64,000 bases of DNA, from contig NZ_OY782507.1 in the NCBI RefSeq assembly GCF_963677725.1, positions 558,001 to 622,000 on the forward strand, in the 5' to 3' direction. The number at the start of each line of letters is the position of its first letter. The first letter of the stretch is position 1. The translations under genes and the position numbers were made by a program. This document shows positions 13,579-30,734 of the stretch, piece by piece. The stretch comes from an uncultured Cohaesibacter sp. GTDB lineage: Bacteria > Pseudomonadota > Alphaproteobacteria > Rhizobiales > Cohaesibacteraceae. The notes under the pieces are model-generated. The model had not been told where the DNA came from. It saw only the letters and a list, made by a program, of their open reading frames with translations, and did not search any database.

Positions 13579-13655
<77 letters not shown>

Positions 13656-14008
13656 TTTTTCTTTTCCCCAATGATCTGATTTCGTTCAATTGTGCCTGCT
13701 GCGCACGATTGGATTGCGCTTGAGTTTTGCCCAATAGTCACAATCGTCAGACTGATTGGACCGGTCCCGCGCAACAATGCGCCTTGGATCAAGTCTTGAG
13801 CGTCTCATGAGGCATGTCACCAGACCTGACATGTGTCTTTGAAATGGTGGTTTGGAAACAACCTTCCTATCTCTTCCTTTTTTACGCCAGCAGCGCTTTT
13901 CAGGAATTTTTTCCAATCAAAAGCTTTTATCCCAACAATCACTGTGACAAAATAACTCAGTAGAATTTTATATTTTGCGCTTCGAAGTCATTTTGTTAGG
14001 CGGCTCAT
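13656..14008 (+). other. Intergenic region between tRNA-Pro and the flavocytochrome gene
   Basis: 353 bases with no credible gene. A T-rich stretch directly follows the tRNA. The last 120 bases are AT-rich and end in AGGCGG about 8 bases before the TTG start at 14009. No integrase remnant or second copy of the tRNA 3' end was seen here. Confidence 0.6.
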
Positions 14009-15268
14009 TTGATTGCATTTGTTGTTGTTTTAGCGCCGGTTGTCATCACAGCCCTGCTCGTTATCCCCGCTGCCAGTTGGTCAAATGGCGAGACATGGGG
14101 GTCACTGACTGCGGCTGGCATTGCCTATAGCCTGATGGCGGTCAACATCGTGCTTTCGGCCCGGTATCGTCCGCTGGAAAAGCTGTTCGGTGGACTGGAT
14201 CGCGTCTATTTTGCCCATAAGTGGCTCGGGATTTCTGCCTTCGGCTTTATGCTGATCCATTACCTGATCGAACCGAATTTCAAGGGCCTTGCCCTGTCGT
14301 CGCAACTCAACGAAGTCGCGGCGGAAGTCGGCGATATTTGCTTTTTAGCGCTTGCCGGGCTGATTCTGATCAGTTTTGTGAAGCGAATACCCAAGGTGCC
14401 CCACGAAATTCCCTATCGGATCTGGCGCTGGAGCCACAATCTGATGGGTCCGCTCTTCATCGCCATATCGTTCCATCAAGCCTTTATCAAGCGCCCCTAT
14501 TCCGGTGCGGACGCGCTGTCCGATTGGCTCAATATTCTGGCCGTAATCGGTATTGTCAGCTACCTCTACGGTCTGATTATGCCTTGGCTGCGCAACAAGA
14601 AATATGAGGTTGTCTCCGTTGACAGACTGCCGATTGGAACCGTCATTCGATTGAAGCCCAAGGGAAAAGGAATCAAGATCAAAGCCGGTCAGTTTGCCTT
14701 CCTGTCGATCCAAAAATCCGGATTGAAAGAAGCCCACCCTTTCACGGTTGCCACAGCAGAAGACGATGGCACGCTGACATTCGCCATCCGCCCCTTGGGT
14801 GACTTCACAAAGCGGCTTCGAGACAGCATTGACGTGGGCGATGTCGCCTCTGTCGCGGGCGGCTATGGGGGCTTCGCACTTAAGGAAAGCCATGGCAATC
14901 AGGTCTGGCTTGCCGGTGGAATCGGGATCACGCCCTTTTTGTCCTTCTCCCACACCCTGCCGCCAAAGCCCAATGGTGGCTCTTATCATCTGATCCATGT
15001 TGTCAGCGACGCCGAGCAGGCAATCAGTAGACAGGCCCTCGAAGCCATTGCCATGGAACGGGACGACTTCCATTACAGCCTTTATTCATCAGCGGACAAT
15101 GGGCGGTTCAACGCACAGAAGCTGACCGAATTGCTGGCCTTTGATGCAGCGGGTTCAGACCTTTGGTTCTGTGGTCCGACACCCATGCGCCTCGCAATCG
15201 AAAAGGGGCTGAAAAGCCTCGGGCAGTCGCCGAAGACAATTCATTTTGAACGTTTTGAGTTTCGTTAA
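14009..15268 (+). CDS. NOX/ferric-reductase-like transmembrane flavocytochrome
   Basis: It is predicted to carry electrons from cytosolic NAD(P)H through FAD and two b hemes across the inner membrane. In the 419-residue protein, about six membrane helices fill residues 1-195. Paired histidines H70/H84 and H143/H156 are spaced 14 and 13 apart, matching the bis-heme pattern of the FRE/NOX superfamily. The cytosolic part has the FAD-binding HPFTVAT (243-249), NAD(P)-binding GGIGITPF (303-310) and the WFCGP motif (386-390). The TTG start is chosen because AGGCGG precedes it and no in-frame ATG fits. The acceptor could be Fe(III), oxygen or the downstream cytochrome. A 39-base gap to the next gene suggests an operon. 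Confidence 0.85.
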   Translation: MIAFVVVLAPVVITALLVIPAASWSNGETWGSLTAAGIAYSLMAVNIVLSARYRPLEKLFGGLDRVYFAHKWLGISAFGFMLIHYLIEPNFKGLALSSQLNEVAAEVGDICFLALAGLILISFVKRIPKVPHEIPYRIWRWSHNLMGPLFIAISFHQAFIKRPYSGADALSDWLNILAVIGIVSYLYGLIMPWLRNKKYEVVSVDRLPIGTVIRLKPKGKGIKIKAGQFAFLSIQKSGLKEAHPFTVATAEDDGTLTFAIRPLGDFTKRLRDSIDVGDVASVAGGYGGFALKESHGNQVWLAGGIGITPFLSFSHTLPPKPNGGSYHLIHVVSDAEQAISRQALEAIAMERDDFHYSLYSSADNGRFNAQKLTELLAFDAAGSDLWFCGPTPMRLAIEKGLKSLGQSPKTIHFERFEFR

Positions 15269-15307
15269 TCGCACTACGACCGACCAAGCAAGATTTCAGG
15301 AAAAACC

Positions 15308-18300
15308 ATGGACACCAACTATTTGCTCTTTCGCCGCAACACAAAGATCTGGCTGCTTTCTGGTCTGATCGGGCTTGCCAGTCCATTTGCCAGCGCGTTT
15401 GTCGGTTCGAATGCCTCTGCTGTCGCGCAACAATTGTTTGAAAAAGGCGCTTTTTCCGATTACAGCCCAAATGTCGAGAATGGCAAATATATGTTCGCGG
15501 CAAGTGGCTGTGCGGTCTGCCATGCCAGCCCAAATGACCCGGATGTTTTGTCCGGCGGGCTGAAGATGGAAACTGCCATCGGCGAATTCTATACCCCCAA
15601 TATTTCCCCCAGTGCACAGGGCATTGGCGGCTGGTCCAAGGCCGAATTCCTCAATGCTGTGATGCGCGGCGTTTCACCCGACGGGGATCACTATTATCCA
15701 ACCTTCCCCTATACATCGTATGCAGGCTTGAAGCCGCAAGACGTACTCGACATTCAAGCCTATATCGCGACCCTGCCAAAATCCGACAACAGTCCTCAGG
15801 CGCACAAAATCGGCTTTCCCTATAATTTCCAGACCACCATTTCGCTCTGGAAAATGTCCAACGAACCGACTGCGGCCTTTGTGCCCGGCGACAACAGCCC
15901 CGAAGCGCGCGGCAAATATCTGGTTGAAGCGGCAGGCCACTGCAATGAATGTCATACCCCGCGTGACCTCACTTTCAATCTGGAGGAAAGTCAGAGATTC
16001 ACAGGTGCCAAGGGATTGACCGGTGCCTTCGCTCCGGCGATTACGGCAGAGGCGCTAAGTTCGGTTTCTGCGACACATTTTACCGAGAATATCCTTGGTG
16101 GTGCGCAGAAGATTTCCGGATCTGCCATCGCCGATCCCATGATGTTTCATCTGGCGAAACAATTGGGCACCCTGTCCAAGGAAGATCGCAATGCGATCTA
16201 TACCTATCTGACCGGCAAAACCCCGCCTGCACCGAAGAAACAGAATTTCGCGCAAGCCGCTTGCGGGGTTGATGAAGAGGTCAGCCTGACAGATGCTGGC
16301 GGCGATGATGCCCTGGCCAGGAAGGTCGACGATTTCATGGGCAAATATTGTCGCAATTGTCATGGCCCCGGTGAACGCGCCCAAGGCTCGTACCCGGCTG
16401 GCGATCTGACATCCATTGCCCGTGATCCGGTTTTTGTGACCCCGGGCAACCCTGAAAAATCGATCCTTTATCAAAGTGTAGCGGCAAGCCGAATGCCTCT
16501 TGGCAAGATGCCCAGCAGTGAGGAGATCAAAATCCTTGCCGACTGGATCACCTCTCTTGGCACCCAAGCGGCCCCTGCTGCGTCTCTCAAGGCAAGCAAG
16601 CCCGCACGCAATCGAGACTTTGTCAAAAGGGAACAGATTGTGCGCGCTGCCTTGGCTGACTTGAGCAAGCTGGACGAGCAAGATCGACGCCACATGCGTT
16701 ACTTCGATTTGCGCTCGCAATATAATGTAGTGCATGGCTGCGAGACCGCAGAACAAGCGCAGAAAAGGCTGAAATTCTACCGCGGCGCTTTTCTCAAACT
16801 GCTCAATTCGCTGTCCTATGGCCCGCGCCTGTTGGCGCCAGACCCTGTCGAAGGCACAGATGGCTTGCTCCTGCGGGTCGATCTGCGCGATTTGAAATGG
16901 TCCGAGGAGGACTATAACGCCCTCGTCAAAGACTATATTTACGGCGTCGCACCGGACAGCGACAACGAGTTATTGTCCCTTGCACTTGGCACGCAAACCA
17001 AGCTGCCCATCATGCGTGCGGACTGGTTCATGTCCAACGCCTCCAAGCCAAAGATGTATGCCAAATTGCTGAAGCTTCCAGACCATATCAAGACGCTGGA
17101 GACAAGGCTCGGCATTGACGCCAAACGCAACATCGAAGATCGTCGCATTCTGCGTGCAGGCTTCTTCCAAGGGGCGTCTGCGGTATCGGATCACAACCGC
17201 CTGCTTGAACGCCACGATATGCCGCTTGGTGGCTATTACTGGAAAAGCTATGACTTTGCTGGCGATGTGCGCCATCAAAATCTGAAGCAATTCCCCCATG
17301 GTCCGAGGAATTTGGGGCAGTTGCCGCTCAATTTCGATCCCTTTGAGCATGATGGCGGTGAAATGATTTTCTCGCTGCCAAACGGCATGCAGGCTTATTA
17401 TCTCTCGGACGGCAAAGGCAATGCCATTCAGGAAGGTCCGACCAGCGTGGTTTCCTTCCGGTCTCGACCAATCGGCAAAGGCATTACAATTGTCAATGGC
17501 CGCTCCTGCTTCTCGTGCCATGCGGATGGCATCATCTCAAAGCGAGATACCATGCGAGCGCATATCGAGACCTCATCGCTCTTCTCGCTTGATCAGCGCG
17601 ATTTTCTGCTCGGCATGTATGTCACGCAGGACGAACTGAACCGCTCCTATGATCAGGATCGTGTGCGCTTTATGCGGGCGCTGACAGATCTTGGGGTTTC
17701 GGAGAAAACTCCGAACGGGGTTGAGCGATCCATGAGTTCTCCGGACGGGACGAGTGAAATCATCACCTGGTATGCGGATCTCTATGAGGCCGACATGGAC
17801 TTTGATGCCATTGCTGGTGAATTCGACATGACGCCGGACGAATTCAAAGATGCCATCATGCGGATTTCCGATGGCGAAACCTTGCGCATCGCCCTTGACT
17901 GGATGCGAAGACTGGATGCAGGCCTCAAGGTGCCTCGTATCGAGCTGGAGAGCCACTATGCCTATATGCTGGGCTTCCTCAAGCAGCTCAAGCCGCTTGA
18001 GGCCTATCAGGTTGCCAATTACAAGGCTGAGCCGACACCGATCCAGCGTGAGGAATATCAACAATCCCTTGGCACCGATTACAAGGTCCAGCGCCCGGAT
18101 ATCAAAGTGCTGTCAGAGGCGGACAACAAGACCGAAGACGGTAAAAATAGCAAGTTGCGGCTCGCTCTGCATGTGCCTTCGACCCGCGTCAAGGTCGATG
18201 ATCTGCTGGCCTTTAAACTGACGGCCAACCGGGCTTGCGAATTGCAGCTCTTCTATGTGCAGGAAGATGGCAAGGTTCTTGAATTCCCAAGTGCCATTGT

Positions 18301-18586
18301 CGGCGATCCGCATATCATTGCCGGCAAGGCCAAGCAGGTTCCGGATCCGAACTCCGAGCATCAGGCGCGTTTCAGTGAGCCTGCCTCGGTTGAAACCTTG
18401 GTGGCCTATTGCCGCGAAGGCGGGCTTGGAAACAGACGCCTGTCTGCTGATGATGCATACAAGCTGGTGCAGAAAAACGGCCCCGGTGCCGGGGCAAAGG
18501 CCCTGACGTTTGAATTGGTGAAACGCACCAAAGAGACCAAGGGCAAAGAAGCCGTTCACATGGTCCAATTCGAAGTCATGCCTTAG
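15308..18586 (+). CDS. Large exported cytochrome c with four CxxCH motifs and C-terminal DUF4384-like domain
   Basis: A 1092-residue periplasmic protein of unassigned function. A signal peptide (residues 1-41, AxA-type end near AVA) is followed by two cytochrome-c-like domains (CAVCH 68-72, CNECH 212-216; the layout of alcohol-dehydrogenase cytochrome subunits). A third domain of the planctomycete/FixP kind follows (CRNCH 348-352, with SRMPLGKMP as probable Met ligand). A long middle region (about 440-900) contains RYFDLRSQYN, KLLNSLSYG and LLRVDLRDLKWSEEDYN, then a fourth site, CFSCH (734-738). The end (949-1045) resembles DUF4384. AGGA precedes the ATG. It lies between the flavocytochrome and an OmpA-domain gene, making electron relay plausible. 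Confidence 0.8.
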   Translation: MDTNYLLFRRNTKIWLLSGLIGLASPFASAFVGSNASAVAQQLFEKGAFSDYSPNVENGKYMFAASGCAVCHASPNDPDVLSGGLKMETAIGEFYTPNISPSAQGIGGWSKAEFLNAVMRGVSPDGDHYYPTFPYTSYAGLKPQDVLDIQAYIATLPKSDNSPQAHKIGFPYNFQTTISLWKMSNEPTAAFVPGDNSPEARGKYLVEAAGHCNECHTPRDLTFNLEESQRFTGAKGLTGAFAPAITAEALSSVSATHFTENILGGAQKISGSAIADPMMFHLAKQLGTLSKEDRNAIYTYLTGKTPPAPKKQNFAQAACGVDEEVSLTDAGGDDALARKVDDFMGKYCRNCHGPGERAQGSYPAGDLTSIARDPVFVTPGNPEKSILYQSVAASRMPLGKMPSSEEIKILADWITSLGTQAAPAASLKASKPARNRDFVKREQIVRAALADLSKLDEQDRRHMRYFDLRSQYNVVHGCETAEQAQKRLKFYRGAFLKLLNSLSYGPRLLAPDPVEGTDGLLLRVDLRDLKWSEEDYNALVKDYIYGVAPDSDNELLSLALGTQTKLPIMRADWFMSNASKPKMYAKLLKLPDHIKTLETRLGIDAKRNIEDRRILRAGFFQGASAVSDHNRLLERHDMPLGGYYWKSYDFAGDVRHQNLKQFPHGPRNLGQLPLNFDPFEHDGGEMIFSLPNGMQAYYLSDGKGNAIQEGPTSVVSFRSRPIGKGITIVNGRSCFSCHADGIISKRDTMRAHIETSSLFSLDQRDFLLGMYVTQDELNRSYDQDRVRFMRALTDLGVSEKTPNGVERSMSSPDGTSEIITWYADLYEADMDFDAIAGEFDMTPDEFKDAIMRISDGETLRIALDWMRRLDAGLKVPRIELESHYAYMLGFLKQLKPLEAYQVANYKAEPTPIQREEYQQSLGTDYKVQRPDIKVLSEADNKTEDGKNSKLRLALHVPSTRVKVDDLLAFKLTANRACELQLFYVQEDGKVLEFPSAIVGDPHIIAGKAKQVPDPNSEHQARFSEPASVETLVAYCREGGLGNRRLSADDAYKLVQKNGPGAGAKALTFELVKRTKETKGKEAVHMVQFEVMP

Positions 18587-18596
18587 GAGATGTGAC

Positions 18597-19508
18597 ATGA
18601 ACAAATTTCAAACACGTCTTCTATTCATCGCCGGGCTGCTGCTGTCCTGTGGCTGGATCTTACCCGTCAATGCTGCCTGCAATAGCGCGGATGCGGCGCT
18701 CAAGGCCCTCAAGGAGAGCGATCTCAAAGCTGGGGAGGCTGTGATCGCCGCCTCCCTCAGCAACCGCGATTGCTCTGCTGAAGAGCGACAACAGACCTTT
18801 AGATATGCCTCGCTTATCAAGTTCAATCAGATCAGCGCCGCCATCCAAGGAGGCGCGCCGCTTGAACAATTCGAGGACGCGCTTGGCGACTGGGAGAAAG
18901 CCGGAGCCTCCTGGCAGATTTTCGACGCCCTTGGTGACATTGCGCGCAAGAAGAAAGACTTTGCCAAGGCCGCGGATTATTATCTGATTGCCTTGGAAGA
19001 AGCGTCAGACGCGACCCATACGCCGGACTGGATGGCTCCGGACGAAGCCTATATTCGGCATCTTGACAAATCTGCGACCGAAATGCGTCTCGCCTCCAAT
19101 GCACCGCCTCGCCTGTCGATTAGAAGCGGCTGCAAGATTTCCTATCGCTCGGTAACGATCCGTAAGAAAACCACCCCTATTCGCTTCAAGTTTGGCAAAG
19201 CCGAATTTGCCGATCACAGCGAAGCCGCCGCGATGGACCTTTTCAAATGTCTTCAGTCTGTTGGCGCCAAGGGAGTGACGTTGGTTGGCCATACGGACCC
19301 GGTCGGCAGCGATGACGTCAATCAAGAGCTCTCCGAGCGACGGGCTGAGAGGCTTGCCAGCTTCTTGTTAAATCAAGGCTTTAAGGGCGACATCGCAACA
19401 GTGGGCAAAGGGGAAAGCGAACCTTTCAAGGTCGATGATCCCACCGCCTATGACACAGAGACCCTTAATCAAATGCATAGGCGTGTCGATGCCAATATCA
19501 TTCGATAG
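18597..19508 (+). CDS. OmpA-domain periplasmic protein with helical repeat N-terminus
   Basis: A 303-residue exported protein. The signal peptide runs to about residue 26 (VNAACNSADA). Residues 30-170 are alpha-helical with a TPR-like repeat (GDIARKKKDFAKAADYYLIALEEA). The C-terminal 110 residues are an OmpA peptidoglycan-binding domain: IRFKFGKAEFADHSEAA, then GHTDPVGSDDVNQELSERRAERL with the conserved Asp and Arg that bind diaminopimelate. There is no beta-barrel, so it probably tethers a complex to the cell wall. It starts 10 bases after the cytochrome stop and overlaps the next gene by 20 bases, giving strong evidence for one operon. Confidence 0.82.
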   Translation: MNKFQTRLLFIAGLLLSCGWILPVNAACNSADAALKALKESDLKAGEAVIAASLSNRDCSAEERQQTFRYASLIKFNQISAAIQGGAPLEQFEDALGDWEKAGASWQIFDALGDIARKKKDFAKAADYYLIALEEASDATHTPDWMAPDEAYIRHLDKSATEMRLASNAPPRLSIRSGCKISYRSVTIRKKTTPIRFKFGKAEFADHSEAAAMDLFKCLQSVGAKGVTLVGHTDPVGSDDVNQELSERRAERLASFLLNQGFKGDIATVGKGESEPFKVDDPTAYDTETLNQMHRRVDANIIR

Positions 19509-21105
19509 TTCGTTCCCGGCGCTTCGCTGCCTTAAGGCCGGGATCGCGGCTTTTGCCTGTGTCTGTGGCCTTATGGGAGGTGTCCAGTCCGCGACAGCTG
19601 CGAGCTATGCGCTTGTGGTGGGCATCAATGAGTATCAGGCGGAGAACAATCTCGATGGAGCGGTTGCCGATGCGCAAGACATCGCATCGGCTTTGCGGTC
19701 CTATGGTGTTGATGAACTGGTTCTGTTGCTCAATCAGGACGCGTCCCGAGATGCGATTAAGACCAATCTGAATCGAATGATCAACGCAGCCAGCCCCGGA
19801 GACAGTTTGATCTTCACTTATGCAGGTCACGGGGCACAGGCACCCGAAGCGATTGCCGGATCTGAGCCGGATGGGAAAGACGAGTTTTTCCTGCTCTCGG
19901 CCTTTGATCGGACCAAGCCCGAAGAGATGAAAAACAACCAAATTCTGGATGACGAAATCCGTGAGTGGTTGCTGGTGGCCGACCGCAAGAAACTCAATAC
20001 CATCTTTGTTGCCGACAGTTGTCATTCCGGCGGCATGTCGCGATCCATCCTGAAGTCCCGTCTGGCACCTGCGGTGAGTGTGCCAGTTGGGGCCAACAAT
20101 GATGCGGCTCTTGCAGCCTCCCGGATCAGGGAAAAGGATTTCCGCAACACGTTGTTTTTGTCCGCATCGCTTGAGTCCGATCCTGCGCCGGAAGTTTGGA
20201 TCGATGGGGCCGCGCGCGGTGCCCTGAGTTATGCCTTTGCAATGGCTCTTAGACCAGAGAATGGTGCCGGTCTTGACAAGAACCAGAATGGCCGCATTGA
20301 GCGGCTTGAGCTGACAGATTATGTTTTGGGGCTGGTTAAGGCGCGCGCTGAAAATATGCAAACGGCAAACTTTTCCCCGCGGTCGGAAAATGTGATGCGT
20401 GCAGTTGCCTTTGAGAAGGCTCCCAAGGCTGGGACGGGTGCTGGCATTGAGCAGCTAGAAAGCTTCTCACTTGCAGATCTTCAAGATCAGCAAGCAGCCG
20501 TTGAGACCGAGATTCCAAAGATCCCGTTTGAAGATCCATCCAGTGCTGGGGCCATTGAGGGTGTTTTCGCCCATGACGACCACGCCTTCCGCTGGGATGC
20601 CTCCGATGGACGCATGATCACGCCCTTTGGTGACGTTGCGGCGAGCGGCCTGAAGGCGTCACAGCTTCAGAAAGTGATTGACAAATTCCGCCTGATTGAA
20701 GCTTTGAAAAACCGCCAGACGCACAACGGAACCGTTTCCATCAATCTTCTTCCCTTCTCGCCGCTCTATAAACGGGGTGAGCGCATTTCGCTTTCGGTGG
20801 AAGGCGTCCACGAAGGCCAGATAAGTCTGTTCAATTTGCCCAATGATGGCACCGTGCAACCGCTTGGGACATATTCCGCCAAGGCGAGGCAATTGATCAG
20901 TCTGGGGGACTTTGAGATCGTGCCGCCTTTTGGGGCTGACCATGTTGTGGCTCTGGCCGCAGACGACGTCACCACAAAAGCCATCGACGATCTCTTTGGT
21001 ACCATTCCCGATATGACCGCAACGGATCTGCTCGCCCGCTTGCCCTCCCTGTCGGCCAAGGCAAAAATCGGCATTCAACCTTTCTATACAAAGGATCGGC
21101 CATGA
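19489..21105 (+). CDS. Exported caspase-like protease (metacaspase-type, DSCHSG) with DUF4384-like domain
   Basis: A clan CD cysteine peptidase predicted in the periplasm. The start is the ATG at 19489 (MPISFDSSFP, 538 residues): it gives a clean signal peptide ending near ATA-AS (about residue 38), whereas a longer frame would run into the preceding gene. The p20 fold starts YALVVGINEYQ. The catalytic dyad is His114 in YAGHG and Cys178 in ADSCHSGG. Residues 255-290 contain DKNQNGRIERLEL, an EF-hand-like segment, suggesting calcium. The C-terminus (about 415-505) resembles DUF4384 (RGERISLSVEGVHEGQISLF). It overlaps the OmpA gene upstream and the next caspase downstream. Confidence 0.85.
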   Translation: MPISFDSSFPALRCLKAGIAAFACVCGLMGGVQSATAASYALVVGINEYQAENNLDGAVADAQDIASALRSYGVDELVLLLNQDASRDAIKTNLNRMINAASPGDSLIFTYAGHGAQAPEAIAGSEPDGKDEFFLLSAFDRTKPEEMKNNQILDDEIREWLLVADRKKLNTIFVADSCHSGGMSRSILKSRLAPAVSVPVGANNDAALAASRIREKDFRNTLFLSASLESDPAPEVWIDGAARGALSYAFAMALRPENGAGLDKNQNGRIERLELTDYVLGLVKARAENMQTANFSPRSENVMRAVAFEKAPKAGTGAGIEQLESFSLADLQDQQAAVETEIPKIPFEDPSSAGAIEGVFAHDDHAFRWDASDGRMITPFGDVAASGLKASQLQKVIDKFRLIEALKNRQTHNGTVSINLLPFSPLYKRGERISLSVEGVHEGQISLFNLPNDGTVQPLGTYSAKARQLISLGDFEIVPPFGADHVVALAADDVTTKAIDDLFGTIPDMTATDLLARLPSLSAKAKIGIQPFYTKDRP

Positions 21106-22661
21106 AGACGCGCGAACCACTTGCACAGCTCATGCTGGCTGCACTCATGCTCCTTGGTGTGCTTGCGACGGGTGCTTCAGCCAAAAATCGGGCCTTGCTG
21201 ATCGGCGTTGGGACTTACGCGAACCTGTCGGCCGATCTGTTTCTTAAAGGGCCGAAAAATGATGTCCAATTGATCAAGCATCTGCTGCAAGCAAAGATGG
21301 GGTATCAACCAGACGACATTAAAATTCTGTCCGACAAAGGTGCCACCAAACAGGCGATTGAGGACACGTTCCGCTCTTGGCTGATTGAGGGGACGAGCGA
21401 AGGCGACAAGGTCTATTTCTATTTTTCAGGTCACGGAATACAGGTTAGGGATCGCGATGGAGATGAAAGCGATCAGACCGATGAAGCCCTCGCCCCTTAT
21501 GATCTGAAAATCGGGAAGGATGACTTCCTCAACGCCATCACAGATGATGAAATCGCCAAGCTTTTGAACGATCTGAAAGGGCGTGCCGTGACGGTGGTTG
21601 TTGATGCCTGCCATTCGGGAACCATCACCCGCAGCCTGACCAGAAGTCAGCCTCCCGTTGGTGCACGCTATCTGGTTCATCAAAACCAGAAGATAAAAAA
21701 CCCGCCTGCTGCAACACGGGCGCTGAGTTTTGAACCCAAAACACTCGACAAGCCACAGGGTATTATCAGTCTATCAGCTGCGGCCCCCCACCAATTGGCC
21801 TTTGATGACTTGCGGAAAAAGGACGATGGCAGGACGGGTGTCTTCACCGGGGCCTATGTTGCGGGCATTTTGGGAGGAGAAGCGGACAAGAACAAGAATG
21901 GCTCCGTGAGCTTTTCAGAGCTTCTCGCCCATTTGCGCAAGGAGTCAGATATCTATTGCAAGCAAGACCCGTCCTGTCAGGGACTGACACCCGTGATGGA
22001 GGTGCCGGAAGACGCGCTCAAATATTCCGTGGCTCCGACCTCTCCCACATTCACCACCGCAAAGCCAAAAAAACCTGCCTCAGAGCTGGAACTCAATCCC
22101 AAGGTCACGCAATTCACCGCCTACACGCTTGAGGATCTTAAAGGAAATCATACCAAGCCTGACAATGGCTACGAGGTCGCAACCGAAGTCTTGACGGATC
22201 CGAGCTACAATACATTGTCTCTGGAGATCAAACCGGGTACTGTTCTGGCCGAAGGTCAGGCCTTCACCGTGCATGTCACCTCGGGCGTCGCGGGCGATCT
22301 TCTCCTTTACGATCTCGACACCAAGGGGAAAGCCTTGCAGCTCTTTCCCAATGAGCTGAGCGGCAAAAGCACGCGCATTTCCAGCGGGCAACCCTTTTTC
22401 ATGCCCGATGACGACTATGGCTTTGATTTTGAAGCAGGCAAGCCGGGCGGTTATATATTGGCAATCGTCATCAACGATCGTCTGGCGCTGGATGCCTTTG
22501 CACCCAAATCCCTTGGCCTCACGGACTATCAGGACACGGCCAAATTATTGGGTGTGATCGGTAAGCAGCTGTCCGACTATGTCGTAGATAGCCAGGGGGA
22601 TGACGTGACGGCTCGTCCGGTCCACTGGGCCTATGGTCTGATCAAGTATGAGGTGCATTGA
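21102..22661 (+). CDS. Exported caspase-like protease (metacaspase-type, DACHSG) with DUF4384-like domain
   Basis: A second clan CD peptidase of 519 residues. The signal peptide ends ASA-KN (residue 27). The core is RALLIGVGTYANL, with catalytic His111 in YFSGHG and Cys170 in VVDACHSG. Acidic stretches RDRDGDESDQTDEAL (117-131) and DKNKNGSVSFSELL (an EF-hand-like loop near 265-278) suggest calcium binding, as in metacaspases. Residues 373-465 match the DUF4384 pattern (LAEGQAFTVHVTSGVAGDLLLYDLDTKGKALQLFPN). Its ATG overlaps the stop of the upstream caspase (ATGA), so the pair is translationally coupled. It is the last gene of the five-gene unit. Confidence 0.87.
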   Translation: MKTREPLAQLMLAALMLLGVLATGASAKNRALLIGVGTYANLSADLFLKGPKNDVQLIKHLLQAKMGYQPDDIKILSDKGATKQAIEDTFRSWLIEGTSEGDKVYFYFSGHGIQVRDRDGDESDQTDEALAPYDLKIGKDDFLNAITDDEIAKLLNDLKGRAVTVVVDACHSGTITRSLTRSQPPVGARYLVHQNQKIKNPPAATRALSFEPKTLDKPQGIISLSAAAPHQLAFDDLRKKDDGRTGVFTGAYVAGILGGEADKNKNGSVSFSELLAHLRKESDIYCKQDPSCQGLTPVMEVPEDALKYSVAPTSPTFTTAKPKKPASELELNPKVTQFTAYTLEDLKGNHTKPDNGYEVATEVLTDPSYNTLSLEIKPGTVLAEGQAFTVHVTSGVAGDLLLYDLDTKGKALQLFPNELSGKSTRISSGQPFFMPDDDYGFDFEAGKPGGYILAIVINDRLALDAFAPKSLGLTDYQDTAKLLGVIGKQLSDYVVDSQGDDVTARPVHWAYGLIKYEVH

Positions 22662-22726
22662 TCAGGCCAAAGACTGTGTTGGGAATTTGTAGCCTTCGAT
22701 CCTCGGTGCCCTTTTCCCGGAGCGAT

Positions 22727-24007
22727 TCACGACATTTTCTCAAAGCAGAATTGATTTCCGGTTTTGGGGCTTTTAACGCAAGTCTGCTTACCGATTTGTC
22801 GTTCCGGGGCCGTTTTCGATCCATTGATGAGGGTTGTGCCATCTCTGATCTCGATGCGGGTCTTGGAGCCTGATGGCCAAGCGAAGCTCTTGACCAAGTT
22901 GCCATTTTCCGAATGGCGATATTCCGTGCAATTCTCTTTATCCAATATGCGGCTGCCTTTGGTGACAATACACTGCCCCCATTGTTGCCCCAGTTTCACA
23001 CTTCTGGACGTTTGAACCGGCAATGTTTGCAGGGTTTGAGCCGCGTTGAAATAGACAAGCGGCGTAACAGGATAGGCAATGCCGTTGGTTCCCTTGGCAA
23101 GGGTGTAGCCATTTCGGGTGTCAAATTCACAACCATCGCCGGACATTTCGTCCATGGCAAAAGCGCCAACTGGCTCTGCTGTGGTTGAGCCATTCATATC
23201 TCTCCAGCTCCAGTCTTCTGGAACGGTGGATGTCTGTTGTCGGGCGCTTTCATCATCGAGCCAGTAATAGATGTTGCTGCAAATCACTGCCAATTGGCGC
23301 TTGGTCGGGTTTTTGACTTCTGGCAAGTCTGACAGCTGAATGTTCCAACGCCCCGCCTGATCGACAGTCTCAACATAGAGCATGCTGTCGCTGGGGGTTT
23401 CCAACATTTTCGCCAGCAAAGATGCTTTAAGGCTGCTACCACCGACAAAGTCTGGACGGTGAATGAGATCACTGACCAGTTTCGAGATGGATTTCGTTGC
23501 CAGCTCATAGGCGTCTTTTACGGTCTTCTCATTGTAAGAGCCATTGGGCACGATCAAGGCAGGCGCGTGGAAGCCAAGCTTGCCCTTGGGGTGCAGAACG
23601 CGCCAAATGTAAGGCTCTCCTTCATGCGGCCAATAAGAGCCACCCATGAAAACCAGCGCACAGGCTGACAAGCAGCTGGCATTGGCCTCGATCCGGGTCG
23701 GTATCGGGCGTTCCTTCATAAAACTCGTGACTTTAAGCGCCTCGACAAAGGAGCCACCGGGGCTATCCAGACATAGCACGGGGGGCTTGACGTCGATGAT
23801 TTTCTGGGCATCGCCTTTCTCGAAAGTGCCAGAAAACAAGTGCGAACAGCCATGCTGCGTGTCAACTTCATAGGTTTCGGGATCGATCCGCAGGCCGTCC
23901 AGTTTCGTCAATGTGCCAGCGGTTGTCACATTGGTGGACAGGACGGTCAAAAAACACAAAAGAGAAAAGACAATATAAAATGGCACAAGGCTGCTCCTTG
24001 ATGGCAT
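22727..24007 (-). CDS. Exported ClpP/crotonase-fold protein (COG3904-like), paralog A
   Basis: A 426-residue predicted periplasmic protein with a serine-peptidase-like core. After the signal peptide (1-30), a domain shows LCLDSPGGSFVEAL (79-90), SCLSACALVFMGGS (111-124) and GKLGFHAP (142-149). This resembles the ClpP/SppA arrangement with candidate nucleophile Ser114 and His147. Activity is unproven. A cysteine-rich C-terminal region follows (CIVTKGSRILDKENC, CVKSPKTGNQFCFEKMS). A GTG at 23986 has a better ribosome-binding site (AAGGAG) than the ATG used here, so the start is uncertain. It converges with the caspase operon and diverges from its paralog. Confidence 0.75.
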   Translation of the reverse strand: MPSRSSLVPFYIVFSLLCFLTVLSTNVTTAGTLTKLDGLRIDPETYEVDTQHGCSHLFSGTFEKGDAQKIIDVKPPVLCLDSPGGSFVEALKVTSFMKERPIPTRIEANASCLSACALVFMGGSYWPHEGEPYIWRVLHPKGKLGFHAPALIVPNGSYNEKTVKDAYELATKSISKLVSDLIHRPDFVGGSSLKASLLAKMLETPSDSMLYVETVDQAGRWNIQLSDLPEVKNPTKRQLAVICSNIYYWLDDESARQQTSTVPEDWSWRDMNGSTTAEPVGAFAMDEMSGDGCEFDTRNGYTLAKGTNGIAYPVTPLVYFNAAQTLQTLPVQTSRSVKLGQQWGQCIVTKGSRILDKENCTEYRHSENGNLVKSFAWPSGSKTRIEIRDGTTLINGSKTAPERQIGKQTCVKSPKTGNQFCFEKMS

Positions 24008-24310
24008 ATGAAAATGGAATACGTGATCTAATTGGCTTATTTTGCAATTTTCCCTGCAAATAGCCCCAATTATTTGGACAAAGTATGCATCGATTACAGA
24101 TTTCTGAAAAGGCAGATTTTCAAACCGGAAAATTATACGAAACCCTTCTCATTTATTCTTTTCAAAGAGAAGAAAAATTCCTGTATTGACGGGACTTTAT
24201 TTCGCAAACCCAGTTGTTTGGCTGCGTTCCCATACGTTAAGATCGCACCATAAAGCAGCGTCGCTGATCATGTATATTTGCATCGACCATTTTAAAATAA
24301 GGATGGGGTC
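24008..24310. other. AT-rich divergent intergenic region between the two ClpP-like genes
   Basis: 303 bases, visibly more AT-rich than the surroundings, holding the regulatory sequences for both divergent genes. I see no confident consensus promoter and no gene. A good AGGATGGGG ribosome-binding site lies at the right end before 24311. Confidence 0.5.
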
Positions 24311-25804
24311 ATGAGGTTTTTCGTGCGCAATGCCATATTGTGTCTGGCTTTTCTAAGCGGTCTTCTCGCATTTGTACTTCCTGGCAGTGCGGCGGAGATC
24401 GTCAAGTATCGCAATGACCATTATGGATGCACATTGAAGATCGATGGCGTCATTCAGAAGGGGGATGCAGACAAGTTTGCCGCTCTGATCACCGATTTGA
24501 GCCGCACAGATGATTTTTATCTGAGCCTTGATCGCTCTGGCAGCCGCAACCTCCCATGGACCGACAAAACGGCAAAAGCACGCGAACGGCATCACCGGAT
24601 TTGCCTTAATTCCAAAGGCGGTAGCTATGTCGAAGCTCTGAAGATGGTCGATATTATAACAGACCAATTTGGTACGGTTATTGAGCGAGGCAATCGCTGC
24701 GAGTCTGCCTGTGCGATACTATTCATGGCTGGCTCTTTTGCTTCGGAGTCAGATGTTGGCACCATTCCTGATCGCTATTTGCATGCGCTTGGAAAGCTGG
24801 GATTTCATGCGCCCGACCTTCTGGTGCCGGAAGGGGATTATGCCAGAGACACGGTTTCAAAAGCCTATCGGTTGGCAATCTCATCCATCAGTTCCCTGCA
24901 TGCAAAATCGTCCCAGTTGCGCTTTGGTCGCGACCTCTTTCAAGCTTTCTTGAAAACGTCGCCTGAAGACATGTTTTACATTCAGACCACCGGGCAAGCG
25001 GCAATTTGGAAGATAGACATTGTCGGCACTGTCTATCCCGCTAATCTGTCGGCGATTGAGGCAAGCAGGGCTTGTCAAAACCTGTCCATGTATATGGACC
25101 AGTTTGGCGACGTGATCGGCTCAGGGGTTACCAAAGAACCGTATTATCTAAACCCGAACCTTGCTTCCTGGCCGAAGAAACGCCCCTATTTTCCGACAGT
25201 GAAGTCAGAAAAGCAGCAGAATGGTGACGTCTCCTACGAGCTTGAAGGATATCGTCAGGAGGGCGCTTCGACATGCTCTTTCAATTTTAAAACCAAGTCT
25301 ATCGATCTCTTGCCGCGCGCGCTGGGCCTGAATGGTTCGGCCTCAATGGACGGAGGCGGATATGGCTCATGGCTTGGACTTCTGCCCTATCATCTCTTTC
25401 CCTTTGACACCGCACTTGTATCGATTGCGGCAACGCGGGATGGGATCGTCGAAATTCGGGAAATGCCCCAGATTGCGGTTACTGAGAATAGCAAGACGAA
25501 AGGCACCTGCCGGGTGGTCTCGCGTGGAAGATTGACGGATGAAGAACCGTGTGAGCGGCACCGCTACAGTTTTGTGGACCAGACGCTGCAAGAGGAAGCA
25601 ACCTCCAGCTATGAATGGCCATCTGGCAACAAGACGGTGGTGAGTCAAAAGCCGAATAATGCCGGGATCCAGATCAATGGCTCCCCGGCAGGTTGGCCCG
25701 AAGACAATCTCAAGCCGAGTATCCTGAAAAGCTGGTATGAGTGGGGAGATTGCACCCTCAACAAACGAAGCGGGAACGTATTCTGCTTTCAAGAAGTGCT
25801 TTGA
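24311..25804 (+). CDS. Exported ClpP/crotonase-fold protein (COG3904-like), paralog B
   Basis: A 497-residue homolog of the divergent neighbour. The signal peptide ends GSA-AE (about 28). Core motifs are CLNSKGGSYVEALKM (98-112), RCESACAILFMAGS (129-142; candidate Ser132) and GKLGFHAP (161-168; His166), followed by LAISSIS as in paralog A. The shared C-terminal module includes YEWPSGNKTVV and a final CTLNKRSGNVFCFQEV, like SFAWPSGSKTRI and GNQFCFEKMS of the paralog. It has an extra segment around residues 70-95 before the GGS loop. Function is unknown; a periplasmic protease role is inferred only from the fold motifs. Confidence 0.75.
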   Translation: MRFFVRNAILCLAFLSGLLAFVLPGSAAEIVKYRNDHYGCTLKIDGVIQKGDADKFAALITDLSRTDDFYLSLDRSGSRNLPWTDKTAKARERHHRICLNSKGGSYVEALKMVDIITDQFGTVIERGNRCESACAILFMAGSFASESDVGTIPDRYLHALGKLGFHAPDLLVPEGDYARDTVSKAYRLAISSISSLHAKSSQLRFGRDLFQAFLKTSPEDMFYIQTTGQAAIWKIDIVGTVYPANLSAIEASRACQNLSMYMDQFGDVIGSGVTKEPYYLNPNLASWPKKRPYFPTVKSEKQQNGDVSYELEGYRQEGASTCSFNFKTKSIDLLPRALGLNGSASMDGGGYGSWLGLLPYHLFPFDTALVSIAATRDGIVEIREMPQIAVTENSKTKGTCRVVSRGRLTDEEPCERHRYSFVDQTLQEEATSSYEWPSGNKTVVSQKPNNAGIQINGSPAGWPEDNLKPSILKSWYEWGDCTLNKRSGNVFCFQEVL

Positions 25805-25839
25805 CCCTTTAAAAGACCACGCGGCTTTTGTGACGGGAT

Positions 25840-27075
25840 CTATTTGATCAAAATGTCAGAAAAGCTGTAGGCAATGGCGTCCTTGTTCACGTCGTTGATC
25901 ACGCCTTCGGTATCCCCTGCTTCCAGCCGGTCGTGCAGAGTGCGCAACAGGGTCAATCGGGCATTTTTTTGGCTAAAGACATCCTGTTGCGCGCACAGCA
26001 ATCCCAGCCAGTTATGGCCACGCTCATCCTGTTCCTGAATGATCAGCCCGTAACGGGAACCGGGTGACATTTCATATCTGGTCAATTGATGCCCGGTTTG
26101 TTCCTTCTTGAAAAAGTGGGTCGGTATCGGAGTGACTTTGCGCGACGGAGAAATCGCCAGAAAGATTGGCTCGCAAGTCTTTGGCAAGACGGCAAAAAAG
26201 GAAATCTCTTCGTTGGTCGTGACCTGCGGCGGGTAGACCGAGAGGATGAGATCAGTCCGCTCCTGCTTCTTGTTCGCATTGCCTGATGGCATCGATCCTT
26301 TTGATGCAACCGATCCGCTTTTGGCCAAATAGAGCTCTGCCTGCATTTGAGAGAGCTGTTGCGGGCGTTGCACGTTGGCGGTTTCGGCCATCACTTCACG
26401 CGTGACGCGCTTCATCAAAACCGAAATTTCAACATCGGGTGTAACCAGATTTTTCGCCAGTGCCTTGGCAAAGGGCGAATTGCGTCCCTTGCCATCGGAC
26501 GCAACGGTGTTTGGCAAGGTGGCGAATGTGACCAGCATGTCGCCAGTCGTTCGCACGACGGCAAGACCTCGTGTGACGGAGCGCGATTTCGCGCCTGTAG
26601 AACTGGCCAAGGCATCGGCCAAGGGATTGTTTCTGCATGCATCGAGAAAGACCAGGCTGATGGGGGCGTCTTTCATCACATCCAGAAAGGATTGCAGACG
26701 CAGTGTCTCGCGCTCAATCGCGCTGTTGCTACGCAGCCTTGCATCGATGGGCACGAGATAATTTTCGCCGTCCTTTTGCAGCCCATGCCCGGCATAATAG
26801 AGAGCCACGACATCTGAGGATTTGACGTGCCTTTCCAATGCGTCCAATGCCTCGCCCATTGCTTCTTCATCGGCATCGAGCACCAGTTTGACTTTGAAGC
26901 CCAGTGCGTTGAGCGTGCTTTCGAGCAGCTTTGCATCATTCAGCGCATTGGGAAGCGTGCCTGCATTTTCATAATTGCCGTTGCCGATGATCAGGGCATA
27001 GCGGTCATCAGCCAGCGTCGGCGAGGCTATAAGCAAACCACAAAACAGGAGAACAATTCTAAAGCAGGCAATCAT
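25840..27075 (-). CDS. Exported caspase-like protease (DACRNNP type) with DUF4384-like C-terminus
   Basis: A 411-residue clan CD peptidase. The signal peptide ends TLA-DD (residue 22). The p20 domain starts RYALIIGNGNYEN, with catalytic His97 in YYAGHGLQ and Cys147 in LDACRNNP. The VTRGLAVV and GDMLVTFATLPNTVASDG segments are typical of the common bacterial caspase family often fused to repeats. Residues 273-375 (TDLILSVYPPQVTTNEEISFFAVL, CEPIFLAISP) look like a degenerate DUF4384 module. A GGGGGAAAC lies before the start. The subtype differs from the DxCHSG pair at 19-22 kb. Confidence 0.85.
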   Translation of the reverse strand: MIACFRIVLLFCGLLIASPTLADDRYALIIGNGNYENAGTLPNALNDAKLLESTLNALGFKVKLVLDADEEAMGEALDALERHVKSSDVVALYYAGHGLQKDGENYLVPIDARLRSNSAIERETLRLQSFLDVMKDAPISLVFLDACRNNPLADALASSTGAKSRSVTRGLAVVRTTGDMLVTFATLPNTVASDGKGRNSPFAKALAKNLVTPDVEISVLMKRVTREVMAETANVQRPQQLSQMQAELYLAKSGSVASKGSMPSGNANKKQERTDLILSVYPPQVTTNEEISFFAVLPKTCEPIFLAISPSRKVTPIPTHFFKKEQTGHQLTRYEMSPGSRYGLIIQEQDERGHNWLGLLCAQQDVFSQKNARLTLLRTLHDRLEAGDTEGVINDVNKDAIAYSFSDILIK

Positions 27076-27236
27076 GGACCACGTTTCCCCCGGTCGGAAT
27101 TGTAATAAGAGTCTCAGTCTGGACTAAGGTGTTTTGATTATTTAACATGGTGGCAGATCTCAGAAAAGTATCTCTTGCCAATCATATTTGACGCTTATTG
27201 GCTACAGGTTAGCAGATTTAATAGAAGGAACGCCCC

Positions 27237-27926
27237 ATGGCAGTTGACCGCGCACGCTACTCGCTTCATTCCATCTGGTTTTTTGGATTTCTTCTGACAT
27301 CTCCCGCGCATGCTCAATCGACGATAACCCTTGATTCCCTTGGAGATGACTGGTCGTCTGAAAGCCGCTCGGTTGCGCCAAAGCCAACAAATTCCGCTAC
27401 CGACAAGTTGGAAGGCTGCCTGCTGGACGGGGCACAATGCGAAGACGGCACCTCTCGTGCATCAAGCAAGATCAGCCTGGAAGACGTGGTCAATATTGGC
27501 GTCATCGACCATGAGGAAGCAGCGGCGATCAAATCCAAATCCAGCAAAGACACTGGTCAAGCAGCAACAGCCGCCCTGCCCTCAATCGATATGGAAATCC
27601 TGTTCGACTATAACGCGTCGACCATCAGAGCCGACCAATATGTGAAGCTGGCTCAGTTGGCCAACACCTTGAGTGGCGAGCGGTTCAAAGCGTTCCGTTT
27701 CATGTTTTTGGGTCACACAGATGCCAAGGGCAGTCGCGAATATAATATGGCGCTCTCTTCTAAAAGAGCACAGGCGGTCGCAGATTTCGTGCGTCAATCC
27801 GGCGGGTTCCAATCAAACAAGATGCTGGTAACGGGTGCAGGTTTTTCGCGTCTGAAAGACGAGAGTGATCCATATGGCGCGCAAAATCGGCGGGTTCAAC
27901 TGGTTCTCATCCCCAACAAGGACTGA
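27237..27926 (+). CDS. Small OmpA-domain exported protein
   Basis: A 229-residue protein: signal peptide to AHA-QS (about residue 27), then an unstructured, Ser-rich linker with a CLLDGAQC pair. The OmpA peptidoglycan-binding domain is about residues 118-226 (MEILFDYNASTIRADQY, GHTDAKGSREYNMALSSKRAQAV, QNRRVQLVLIP). AGAAGGAACGCCCC precedes the ATG. It sits between and divergent from caspase genes, mirroring the OmpA-caspase neighbourhood at 18.6-22.6 kb. Confidence 0.85.
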   Translation: MAVDRARYSLHSIWFFGFLLTSPAHAQSTITLDSLGDDWSSESRSVAPKPTNSATDKLEGCLLDGAQCEDGTSRASSKISLEDVVNIGVIDHEEAAAIKSKSSKDTGQAATAALPSIDMEILFDYNASTIRADQYVKLAQLANTLSGERFKAFRFMFLGHTDAKGSREYNMALSSKRAQAVADFVRQSGGFQSNKMLVTGAGFSRLKDESDPYGAQNRRVQLVLIPNKD

Positions 27927-28052
27927 GTGCCAAATCCTTTGACCCCCATTCGCCGTCGGCTTTCACAATAGCGCCTTGGGTGTCCATTATTGCGGACGTT
28001 CCAAAGCGCATCCTATTGCAGCGATCCGAAACAAACATTCTGTTTCAAAAGA

Positions 28053-29447: not shown

Positions 29448-29707
29448 TTTATACCTGTTTCCAAATCTCTTTCAGATGCATTCAGGCCTGCATCCATTCG
29501 CCATCTGACGAATCTGGACTCTAGAAGACGTGTCAAAAACCCAAACAGCAGGCCTTCCTTTTTGCTGGAAGATGCATTGGGAAGGGCGGTGGTTCGCCCC
29601 TCCTCTCGTTCGTGTCCTTTATCTGTGAACAATCAGATTGCAGGCCCAAGCCGCAGTTTGTCCGCCCTGTCTTTGGCGCACTTTCAAAACACCAAATCGA
29701 CTTGCCG

Positions 29708-30538
29708 TCACCATTTGCTTATGACCGAGGCCGAGAATGGACCGCGAAGATCGCCGACCATGCGCGATCCTTTTGGTCCCCCGCATGCGTCAGCATAGTC
29801 AACGGGCGCACAATATCCCGGTCCGTAAGACGTTCTTCTCTTGGTCTGTTTTTTGGAACTTCTCGCTACCTTGTTTTTTTTCTTGGCGGCGAAGGCAAGC
29901 TTGGACTTGGACTTACTGCCTTCGGGTTCGAAGGAAACCAACCCGGCACATTCATTCCAGCTTCCCAAGCCCGCCTGGTAGCAACCAAAATGTCCACCAA
30001 GAACGCTAAGTTTAAATTCCTTTTGACGGCAATATTGTCTTTGCCTCTGTGTCAAGCGGCAGGCGCTTCTCTTCGATGTGTTGATGTAAAGCTTGCCTTT
30101 TCGCTTTGCCACCTTGAAGCCCACATGTGCTCCATATTTCAGCTTACATTTGGTCTCGTCATCCGCTGCGCATTGCGGAATGCCCTTTGCATATCCGACA
30201 GGGTCCAATGGCAGCAATCTTCCCGTCTCGGTATTGACCTGAATTGGCAGTTGAAGCCAATTGAAATAGGCCTTTCCGGTGACCATAAAATTGATTTGCA
30301 TGGCGCTGTAGATCTTGGCCTGCTTTTGCGAAAAACCACGCTTGAGCAAAACCTGCCGCACCTTACGGCTCCAGCCATTTTCAAGGGAGCCTGCATGACC
30401 TTTTTTGTAAATGATCGCCCAGGCTTTGCCAAAATGCCAGCCTTTGGTGGGGTTTGCTCTTTTCTCGACGCCGTAATTGGCAGCAATTGCCGAAGAAGCG
30501 ATGAATAATGCGGCCAAAAAAATAGCTATGCGTTTCAT
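29708..30538 (-). CDS. Secreted basic protein of unknown function
   Basis: A 276-residue protein from the ATG at 30538, chosen because TGGAGATTTC precedes it and a clean signal peptide follows (MKRIAIFLAALFIASSAIA-AN). I do not recognise the family. The mature part has a FGKAWAIIYKKGH segment, a helical WSRKVRQVLLKRGFSQKQAKIYSAMQ stretch and several cysteines (CAADDETKC, SACRLTQRQRQYC, FGCYQ, NEC). A Lys/Ser/Arg-rich linker (KSKSKLAFAAKKKNKVARSSKKQTKRR) precedes a Cys/Gly-rich tail. High positive charge suggests binding to peptidoglycan, nucleic acid or polyphosphate; this is speculative. An overlapping frame on the other strand lacks these properties. Confidence 0.6.
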   Translation of the reverse strand: MKRIAIFLAALFIASSAIAANYGVEKRANPTKGWHFGKAWAIIYKKGHAGSLENGWSRKVRQVLLKRGFSQKQAKIYSAMQINFMVTGKAYFNWLQLPIQVNTETGRLLPLDPVGYAKGIPQCAADDETKCKLKYGAHVGFKVAKRKGKLYINTSKRSACRLTQRQRQYCRQKEFKLSVLGGHFGCYQAGLGSWNECAGLVSFEPEGSKSKSKLAFAAKKKNKVARSSKKQTKRRTSYGPGYCAPVDYADACGGPKGSRMVGDLRGPFSASVISKW

Positions 30539-30734
30539 GAAATCTCCAGAAGATCGTGTTTGGTTCAAAAGCGCAATTGTCGCAAAACTTGAAGGTGCTA
30601 TTTGCAGAACATTTAACGAACGCAATCAGTATGTCAAAATACCTACTGCAAATTCAAGCACTTTCCTGCTGTCGATCTTTGAAAATTTTCCTATCTGAAC
30701 AACGCAAGGCTTTCTGGCAAAGCAAAATCAGGCA

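Follow-up and report, generated by a model that had tools for sequence, protein, structure and literature searches.

A five-gene row joining a NOX-type flavocytochrome and a four-heme cytochrome to an OmpA-domain protein and two metacaspase-type peptidases in an uncultured Cohaesibacter sp.: a possible redox-gated envelope protease system

Operons that join metacaspase-type (C14) peptidases to an OmpA-domain protein are the closest described relatives of the locus reported here. A 2012 survey listed an OmpA-domain protein in 14 metacaspase operons and operons with several metacaspases in Alphaproteobacteria (PMC3501461). The locus lies in a stretch of 64,000 nucleotides (nt) of contig NZ_OY782507.1 from an uncultured Cohaesibacter sp. 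(the window; its first letter is position 1) and consists of the genes FRE, CYT, OMP1, CAS1 and CAS2, encoding a NOX-type flavocytochrome, a large c-type cytochrome, an OmpA-domain protein and two C14 peptidases. C14 peptidases and an OmpA-domain protein in one operon are what it shares with the operons of the survey (PMC3501461), and the system can be described as a metacaspase-OmpA operon with an added redox module. The main text of the survey does not contain the words cytochrome, ferric, redox or DUF4384, while its supplementary tables may list single cases (PMC3501461). An earlier note on this DNA had called the combination undescribed. This is not so for caspases with OmpA, known since 2012 (PMC3501461), but stands for the redox part as far as the open literature goes, where no title among the matches listed reported a caspase operon with a NOX or a cytochrome.

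For the redox module, the closest comparison is SpNOX. Bacterial NOX proteins have been delimited by FAD and NADPH motifs, four heme-ligating histidines, 3 to 7 transmembrane helices and oxygen (O2) as acceptor (PMC5676040). SpNOX reduced cytochrome c directly at 124.7 per minute versus 48 for O2 at similar concentrations (PMC11564096). According to its authors O2 is possibly not the physiological acceptor, which is left open; a protein acceptor is considered in both papers, with MsrQ-MsrP as the precedent (PMC11564096, PMC5676040). MsrPQ resembles the pair described here in that a membrane protein with heme b, from the same superfamily, feeds a periplasmic protein partner (PMC11564096, PMC5676040), and differs from it in that the partner here is a tetraheme cytochrome and FRE has FAD and NAD domains of its own.

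The five genes probably act as one functional unit, as the earlier note had proposed: FRE was found upstream of CYT in 78 of 80 related loci, gene order is fixed with short gaps, the proteins diverge in a correlated manner, and active-site residues are conserved. The best explanation for this unit is a redox-gated protease system of the envelope that brings its own source of electrons, to which a probability of roughly 0.35 is assigned. Electrons from cytosolic NAD(P)H would cross FRE by way of its FAD and two b hemes and be taken up in the periplasm by CYT, a four-heme c-type cytochrome dedicated to this role. OMP1 would tie the assembly to peptidoglycan, and the exported CAS1 and CAS2 would work beside CYT as envelope cysteine peptidases. 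The redox state of CYT (electron flow on or interrupted) would set the activity of CAS1 and CAS2, and envelope proteolysis would thereby track how the cell respires or how oxidised it is. The protein families predict export, the path of the electrons, anchoring to peptidoglycan and catalysis; physical assembly and gating are conjectural. Control of the caspases by CYT is accordingly offered as a tentative proposal; since caspases are cysteine proteases, a redox link is chemically sensible.

FRE, CYT, OMP1, CAS1 and CAS2 are five open reading frames (ORFs) of the plus strand spanning 14009-22661 (Table 1). Gaps of 39 nt between FRE and CYT (15268/15308) and of 10 nt between CYT and OMP1 (18586/18597) are followed by overlaps of 20 nt between OMP1 and CAS1 (19489-19508, CAS1 starting at 19489) and of 4 nt between CAS1 and CAS2 (21102-21105), in agreement with the values given in the earlier note. 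Signal-peptide-like N-termini can be read by eye on CYT, OMP1, CAS1 and CAS2, that is, on every product after FRE, as had been claimed. A signal-peptide script was positive on 51/55 CYT, 52/55 OMP1, 51/55 CAS1 and 37/44 CAS2 relatives, but it is crude and not specific, being positive also on the first membrane helix of FRE (52/55). A scan for promoters and terminators at the operon gave a result no better than that of shuffles.

Residue conservation was read from 55 gene sets, namely the window and 54 relatives, with CAS2 present in 44. The Pfam matches named for the five operon proteins lie above the curated cut-offs unless a weaker match is indicated.

FRE matches PF01794, PF08022 and PF00175, and its closest solved structure is SpNOX (8QT6, expectation value (E) 6.3e-35), with which it is colinear over residues 13-419. 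Candidate heme ligands are His70/His84 (HX13H) and His143/His156 (HX12H), all present in 55/55; SpNOX uses H69/H83 and H129/H142 (PMC5676040), and the spacing within each pair is identical. The FAD motif HPFTV at residues 243-247 fits the bacterial NOX pattern H(PSA)F[TS][LIMV], with HPFT in 55/55. The NADPH motif GIGITP at 304-309 was likewise found in 55/55, the fourth place being I or V, both of which the pattern permits, and the penultimate residue is Phe in 55/55. By crude hydropathy only, hydrophobic stretches fall at 1-29, 30-53, 69-91, 100-131 and 165-196, with a further one at 299-317 in the NAD domain.

Naming FRE NOX-like in the earlier note was thus justified, with SpNOX as the nearest structure and the published FAD, NADPH and four-histidine motifs all present. 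The likeness to SpNOX extends from colinearity and the HX13H and HX12H spacing to both nucleotide motifs and the near-terminal Phe, and the difference lies in the c-type cytochrome gene that adjoins FRE, the physiological acceptor of SpNOX having been left open (PMC5676040, PMC11564096). Because its gene adjoins FRE, CYT is a natural candidate for a NOX protein acceptor, and FRE likely passes its electrons to CYT. The genome has, at another location (G000:C1:2722248-2723447), a second and distant gene of the FRE type, with 25% identity.

CYT matches PF00034, PF13442 and, at its C-terminus, PF14326 (DUF4384). The four CxxCH sites of the earlier note are confirmed at residues 68, 212, 348 and 734, each of them conserved in 55/55. 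The protein is laid out as an N-terminal part resembling dehydrogenase cytochromes, a third heme domain, a domain of about 300 residues, the fourth CxxCH and DUF4384. Residues 41-364 align with the cytochrome subunit of fructose dehydrogenase (7w2j, E 2.3e-36) and residues 47-352 with that of aldehyde dehydrogenase (8gy3, E 9.5e-30). The likeness to these membrane-bound dehydrogenases is confined to the N-terminal third; CYT runs about 700 residues further, through an uncharacterised domain, the fourth CxxCH and DUF4384, and no dehydrogenase gene was found beside it.

From the third heme domain to the fourth CxxCH, about 300 residues matched no Pfam family in the 23 members scanned and gave no confident PDB match in a profile search. 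For the C-terminal half, the best PDB profile match was FoxE (E 3.5e-7), covering only profile positions 40-118 in the third-heme region, and both CxxCH of this half were present in all 29 relatives compared. An MtrC/MtrF-like match reached 18.6 bits, below the cut-off of 30. A conduit of the MtrCAB type, with an outer-membrane barrel and a decaheme cytochrome, differs from this arrangement, no barrel family having been found among the operon and island proteins scanned.

OMP1 matches PF00691 above the cut-off and carries a sub-threshold TPR match; Asp234 and Arg249, which we take to be the peptidoglycan-binding residues of the OmpA-like domain, are conserved in 55/55. CAS1 (PF00656, E 1.9e-15; metacaspase-1 structure 4f6o, E 1.3e-13) has its His114/Cys178 dyad in 55/55, and CAS2 (PF00656, E 3.1e-24, together with PF14326; metacaspase-1 structure 7qp0, E 4.1e-17) has His111 in 42/44 and Cys170 in 43/44. 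The two caspases described earlier as complete in their active sites therefore do possess conserved His/Cys dyads. EF-hand-like acidic pairs are invariant in both, D263/E274 of CAS1 in 55/55 and D262/E273 of CAS2 in 44/44, and CAS1 and CAS2 are possibly calcium-dependent cysteine peptidases.

The eukaryotic metacaspases Metacaspase-1 and MCA2 provide the nearest solved structures and share the His/Cys dyad and, for CAS2, the acidic loop; unlike them, CAS1 and CAS2 are predicted to be exported, are extended C-terminally and are encoded in a bacterial operon. DUF4384 (PF14326) is a domain common to CYT and CAS2. Its presence in all three exported enzymes was considered and rejected, since it holds for CYT and CAS2 and is weak for CAS1.

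The genomic context of CYT was compared in the best 80 of 413 CYT relatives from a contig scan, a sample that favours close relatives, neighbours being called from tblastn matches to the window proteins (E 1e-4). In 78/80 loci FRE was encoded on the strand of CYT and no more than 12 kb away, with a gap of at most 150 nt in all 76 measurable pairs; in the two loci without FRE (L123 and L135), the CYT match starts 8 and 325 bases from the locus end. An OmpA homolog was present in 80/80 loci and a caspase, on either strand, in 72/80, so that the adjacency of flavocytochrome, cytochrome and caspase, which the earlier note had proposed to search for, was indeed found. On the same strand and within 12 kb, OMP1 was called in 58/80, CAS1 in 59/80 and CAS2 in 47/80.

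All five genes occurred together in 47 loci, in the order of the window in 47/47. These comprise 46 loci of the Rhizobium/Ensifer/Shinella type and one of Cucumibacter (L090), that is, two lineages besides the window. Median spacings were 22.5 nt for FRE-CYT (76 pairs), 12 for CYT-OMP1 (57), 0 for OMP1-CAS1 (56) and -4 for CAS1-CAS2 (45), the extremes being unreliable as ORF starts were set mechanically.

The 55 gene sets (the window and those 54 of the 80 in which FRE, CYT, OMP1 and CAS1 each had a full ORF, the other 26 being left out) fell at 70% CYT identity into eight clusters of 43, 3, 3, 2, 1, 1, 1 and 1 members. The order FRE-CYT-OMP1-CAS1 was kept in all eight lineages, window included. 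The five proteins have correlated pairwise distances (rho 0.72-0.93), which co-inheritance would predict; this measure does not distinguish linkage from species relatedness.

A second sample covered 297 genomes of the order; the loci of Chelatococcus sambhunathii (L037/L128) and Chthonobacter rhizosphaerae (L044/L145) are in both samples. A CYT match was obtained in 220/297 genomes, and among the matches listed most concern the common two-heme N-terminal part. CYT-type loci were taken as stretches of up to 20 kb from 31 genomes with a match; after leaving out L046 (no C-terminal half), the window genome and G144 (3.6-kb contig), 30 loci were counted. A caspase lay in the stretch in 15/30, against 0.99 expected from the C14 counts (P ~2e-15). 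As genomes of the same family are not independent, the figure was also computed by family, giving 8/12 against 0.94 expected (P ~8e-8). FRE orthologs of at least 378 bits were found only beside CYT (5/5 genomes, window included), the next match reaching 248 bits.

Approached from the caspase side, a CAS1 match was present in 39/297 genomes, with the CYT core within about 13 kb in 11. A further 30 CAS1 stretches were compared, from 27 of the 28 genomes outside these 11 (G099 left out) plus three second stretches, and tblastn found the CYT core in none of them. OMP1 was present in 19/30 and the full OMP1-CAS1-CAS2 in 13/30. A two-heme cytochrome resembling the N-terminal part of CYT lay within about 3 kb of CAS1 in five of the stretches (L154, L165, L168, L173 and L179) and at 10.6 kb in L159.

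OMP1-CAS1-CAS2 thus recurs as an independent module, and some lineages have the redox module added to it. Cytochromes join OMP1-CAS1-CAS2 as fused CYT, as split CYTn and CYTc, or as CYTn alone. In other Hyphomicrobiales families the order is CYTn-CAS1-CAS2-CYTc-OMP1 (L055, L057, L058), and CYTc-OMP1-CAS1-CAS2 (L052, L054) and OMP1-CAS1-CAS2-CYTc (L049) also occur; such differing orders point to repeated linkage rather than one inherited accident. A phylum-wide search, with CYT in 4/398 genomes and at most three candidates per genome scored among the matches listed, says little.

The operon forms part of a larger block that begins directly after a tRNA-Pro(GGG) gene. In blastn comparisons, empty-site matches of relatives end at window positions 13657-13671. 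In G084, of the same genus, the DNA matching window positions 13659 and 30779 is separated by only 165 bp; empty sites were seen in G659 and G661 too, with 263 and 415 bp from the left flank to the next match, beyond the PPK2 gene, and in G119 the left flank alone was matched within the stretch compared. Positions 13,660-30,778 are accordingly read as an insertion, loss in the relatives being less likely. No integrase was found among the 11 main insertion ORFs scanned, no direct repeat of at least 16 nt at the insertion ends, and no clear shift in guanine-cytosine (GC) content.

Downstream of the operon, the insertion carries two further caspase genes, CAS3 and CAS4, a second OmpA-domain protein and two exported ClpP-like proteins, which the earlier note had missed. 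The four C14 genes found in the genome all lie inside the insertion; CAS1, CAS2, CAS3 and CAS4 each have the C14 domain (PF00656) above the gathering score, and GHG and DACR motifs are present in CAS3 and CAS4. For CLP1 a ClpP-related NCBIfam match was obtained at E 0.0061, far below the family cut-off, and CLP2 showed no Pfam family above cut-off. OMP2-type OmpA proteins stand beside FRE-CYT in other lineages, e.g. L112-L119, L121 and L122.

Table 1. Features of the operon and of the insertion that contains it (window coordinates).
Feature	Positions	Strand	Description
FRE	14009..15268	+	NOX-type flavocytochrome b (NAD(P)H-FAD-two b hemes), 419 aa, TTG start
CYT	15308..18586	+	Tetraheme c-type cytochrome, predicted exported, 1092 aa
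OMP1	18597..19508	+	OmpA-domain protein, predicted exported, predicted peptidoglycan anchor, 303 aa
CAS1	19489..21105	+	C14 (metacaspase-type) peptidase, predicted exported, EF-hand-like loop, 538 aa
CAS2	21102..22661	+	C14 peptidase with DUF4384, predicted exported, 519 aa
tRNA-Pro (GGG)	13579..13655	+	Left edge of insertion; ARAGORN
Insertion	13660..30778		17.1 kb: operon, four C14 genes, two OmpA, two ClpP-like, one hypothetical
CLP1	22727..24007	-	Predicted exported ClpP-like protein, SAC and GFHAP motifs; possible accessory part
CLP2	24311..25804	+	Predicted exported ClpP-like protein, same SAC and GFHAP motifs
CAS3	25840..27075	-	Predicted exported C14 peptidase, DACR type; PF00656 E 6.9e-40
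OMP2	27237..27926	+	Second OmpA-domain protein; PF00691 E 4e-14
CAS4	28053..29447	-	Predicted exported C14 peptidase, TPR/Sel1-like repeats; PF00656 E 4.3e-38
Exported hypothetical	29708..30625	-	Last insertion gene; no Pfam family above cut-off

Among 11 genomes of the genus in the order sample, none besides that of the window gave a CYT match better than 1.8e-44, and those congeners therefore have no full-length ortholog. In another genome of the genus (G273, L160), OMP1-CAS1-CAS2 was found without any cytochrome; the caspase module is present in the genus independently of the insertion in the window.

Several observations weigh against a redox-gated protease system. CAS2 was present in only 3/8 lineages (the window, the 43-member Rhizobium/Ensifer/Shinella-type cluster and Cucumibacter); clusters that lack it, those of the Rhodobacteraceae included, have a CAS3/CAS4-type caspase nearby instead. 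As many as 43/55 complete sets belong to one cluster, many of them at a shared chromosomal site, and these sets are therefore not independent; at this site of the Rhizobiaceae loci, upstream neighbours are common to 37 and downstream neighbours to 29, presumably genes for sulfite reduction and amino-acid transport. No caspase lay in the locus stretch in 8/80 CYT loci of the FRE-CYT-OmpA kind, two Roseibium and three Hoeflea among them, whose genomes carry one or two C14 genes outside that stretch. The same was true of the other 15/30 CYT loci of the order sample, among them one (L056) that ends at a contig end and those of all seven f34 genomes counted; these seven have CYT with neither FRE nor a caspase beside it, and none of them is among the genomes with an FRE match.

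From the caspase side, 25 of the 39 CAS1 genomes had no CYT nearby as far as seen; G036, G144 and G150 allow no judgement, as their CAS1 and CYT are split between contigs, close to the contig ends. DUF4384 is weakly suggested in CAS1 (E 0.01-0.02; 1/29 members), and a mechanism for the reduction of cysteine thiols by c-type hemes is not known to us. The earlier note had named cytochrome and caspase homologs occurring mostly apart as a result that would speak against its reading. This is not the case for close CYT relatives (caspase in 72/80), applies to half of the loci order-wide (15/30), and is the rule for CAS1-type caspases, which are mostly without CYT (11/39 together).

The modular pattern fits gating and an alternative based on quality control about equally. 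In the latter, FRE-CYT would serve reductive repair or the scavenging of peroxide, much as MsrP receives electrons from MsrQ in other bacteria, the caspases and ClpP-like proteins would degrade irreparable envelope proteins, and OmpA would keep both near the wall; the modules would share purpose and regulation, and the caspases would not be switched by the cytochrome. Occurrence of each half alone is what would be expected of cooperating independent modules, and the four caspases stacked in one island, the exported ClpP-like proteins of the insertion, CLP1 homologs near CYT and caspases in L110 and L131, and MsrQ-MsrP as precedent for a protein acceptor (PMC11564096, PMC5676040) all agree with it. 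However, neither the molybdopterin partner MsrP or another MsrP-type family nor a peroxidase family was found among the operon and island proteins scanned, and with no known relative of the fourth-heme domain a peroxidase activity is a guess. Damage control of this kind is a close competitor, and gating is placed slightly ahead of it owing to the linkage in several gene orders and to the DUF4384 shared by CYT and CAS2.

An oxidative burst or death module, with FRE making superoxide outside the cytosol, CYT sensing or scavenging it and the caspases lysing the cell or attacking neighbours, would suit the NOX motifs of FRE, the location of the genome's caspases on an accessory insertion and the discussion of bacterial caspase homologs as death proteases (PMC3501461). 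It is nevertheless improbable: the cytochrome gene directly follows FRE in 78/80 loci, which makes O2 unlikely as the main acceptor, and a role in stress or housekeeping would account equally well for long-kept chromosomal copies whose catalytic residues are conserved. A peripheral respiratory or metal-reducing chain from FRE through CYT to an outside acceptor, anchored by OmpA, with caspases that mature or clear the cytochrome or are incidental, is held to be similarly improbable. Pfam names the membrane part of FRE a ferric-reductase-like component, the CYT N-terminus resembles fructose, aldehyde and alcohol dehydrogenase cytochrome subunits, and caspase-less FRE-CYT-OmpA loci exist, but no outer-membrane porin or dehydrogenase family was found among the operon and island proteins scanned, the MtrC-like match stayed below its cut-off, and a caspase accompanies CYT in 72/80 loci; a plain ferric reductase or metal-respiration chain is kept as a minor rival only. 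Chance neighbourhood or hitch-hiking in a caspase-rich island, without any functional link, is strongly disfavoured. The operon does sit on an insertion with many proteases, and caspases are common (1 to 24 C14 genes per genome in the 33 CYT genomes searched), yet both the locus and the family counts far exceed expectation and the four-gene order recurs in eight lineages.

Linkage conserved in distantly related bacteria is a sign that certain bacterial caspases may cooperate with an electron-transfer chain of the envelope. With a cytochrome gene following the NOX gene in 78/80 loci, the acceptor question of bacterial NOX becomes testable, and the redox-gated reading, if true, would give a bacterial NOX homolog a natural acceptor protein. 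The role of bacterial caspases likewise becomes testable in a conserved gene row with defined partners, and CYT contributes a conserved domain, about 300 residues long, without a match among Pfam or PDB families. A cytochrome-c-to-caspase circuit in Alphaproteobacteria, in which a NOX-charged tetraheme cytochrome switches wall-anchored metacaspases in the periplasm, is a doubtful but consequential form of this reading. If the caspases are cytochrome-controlled, the parallel with animal caspases triggered by cytochrome c would bear on the bacterial roots of apoptosis, Alphaproteobacteria being the group thought to have given rise to mitochondria; nothing here shows common descent with the animal circuit.

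As to defence functions, all four caspases match the first part of the PADLOC caspase model PDLC02987, a candidate anti-phage defence (best E 2.3e-27), and differ from it in that the matches span only about 28 to 37% of the model. No known anti-phage system was complete among the ten proteins scanned, which besides the caspase matches gave only weak matches to ZorB (OmpA). A phage-borne module was rejected, as only three relatives on viral contigs were found (L185, L186 and L187), with the CYT core alone at 27-33% identity and no other window protein in their flanks. Spread by plasmids was rejected as well: among 72,556 plasmid records a single one matched with an E of at most 1e-60, a plasmid of Neorhizobium petrolearium (NZ_CP123001.1, L184). 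It carries caspase-OmpA-FRE-CYT, followed by three same-strand hypothetical genes.

In the order sample, a small protein of a family that we take to be cytochrome c' was observed in 10 CYT-type stretches (L047-L050, L052, L054, L055, L057, L058 and L060) and in four CAS1-type stretches (L165, L171, L173 and L179). Four cytochrome-less CAS1 stretches (L158, L160, L167 and L178) contain a protein that is presumably serpin-like, a protease inhibitor.

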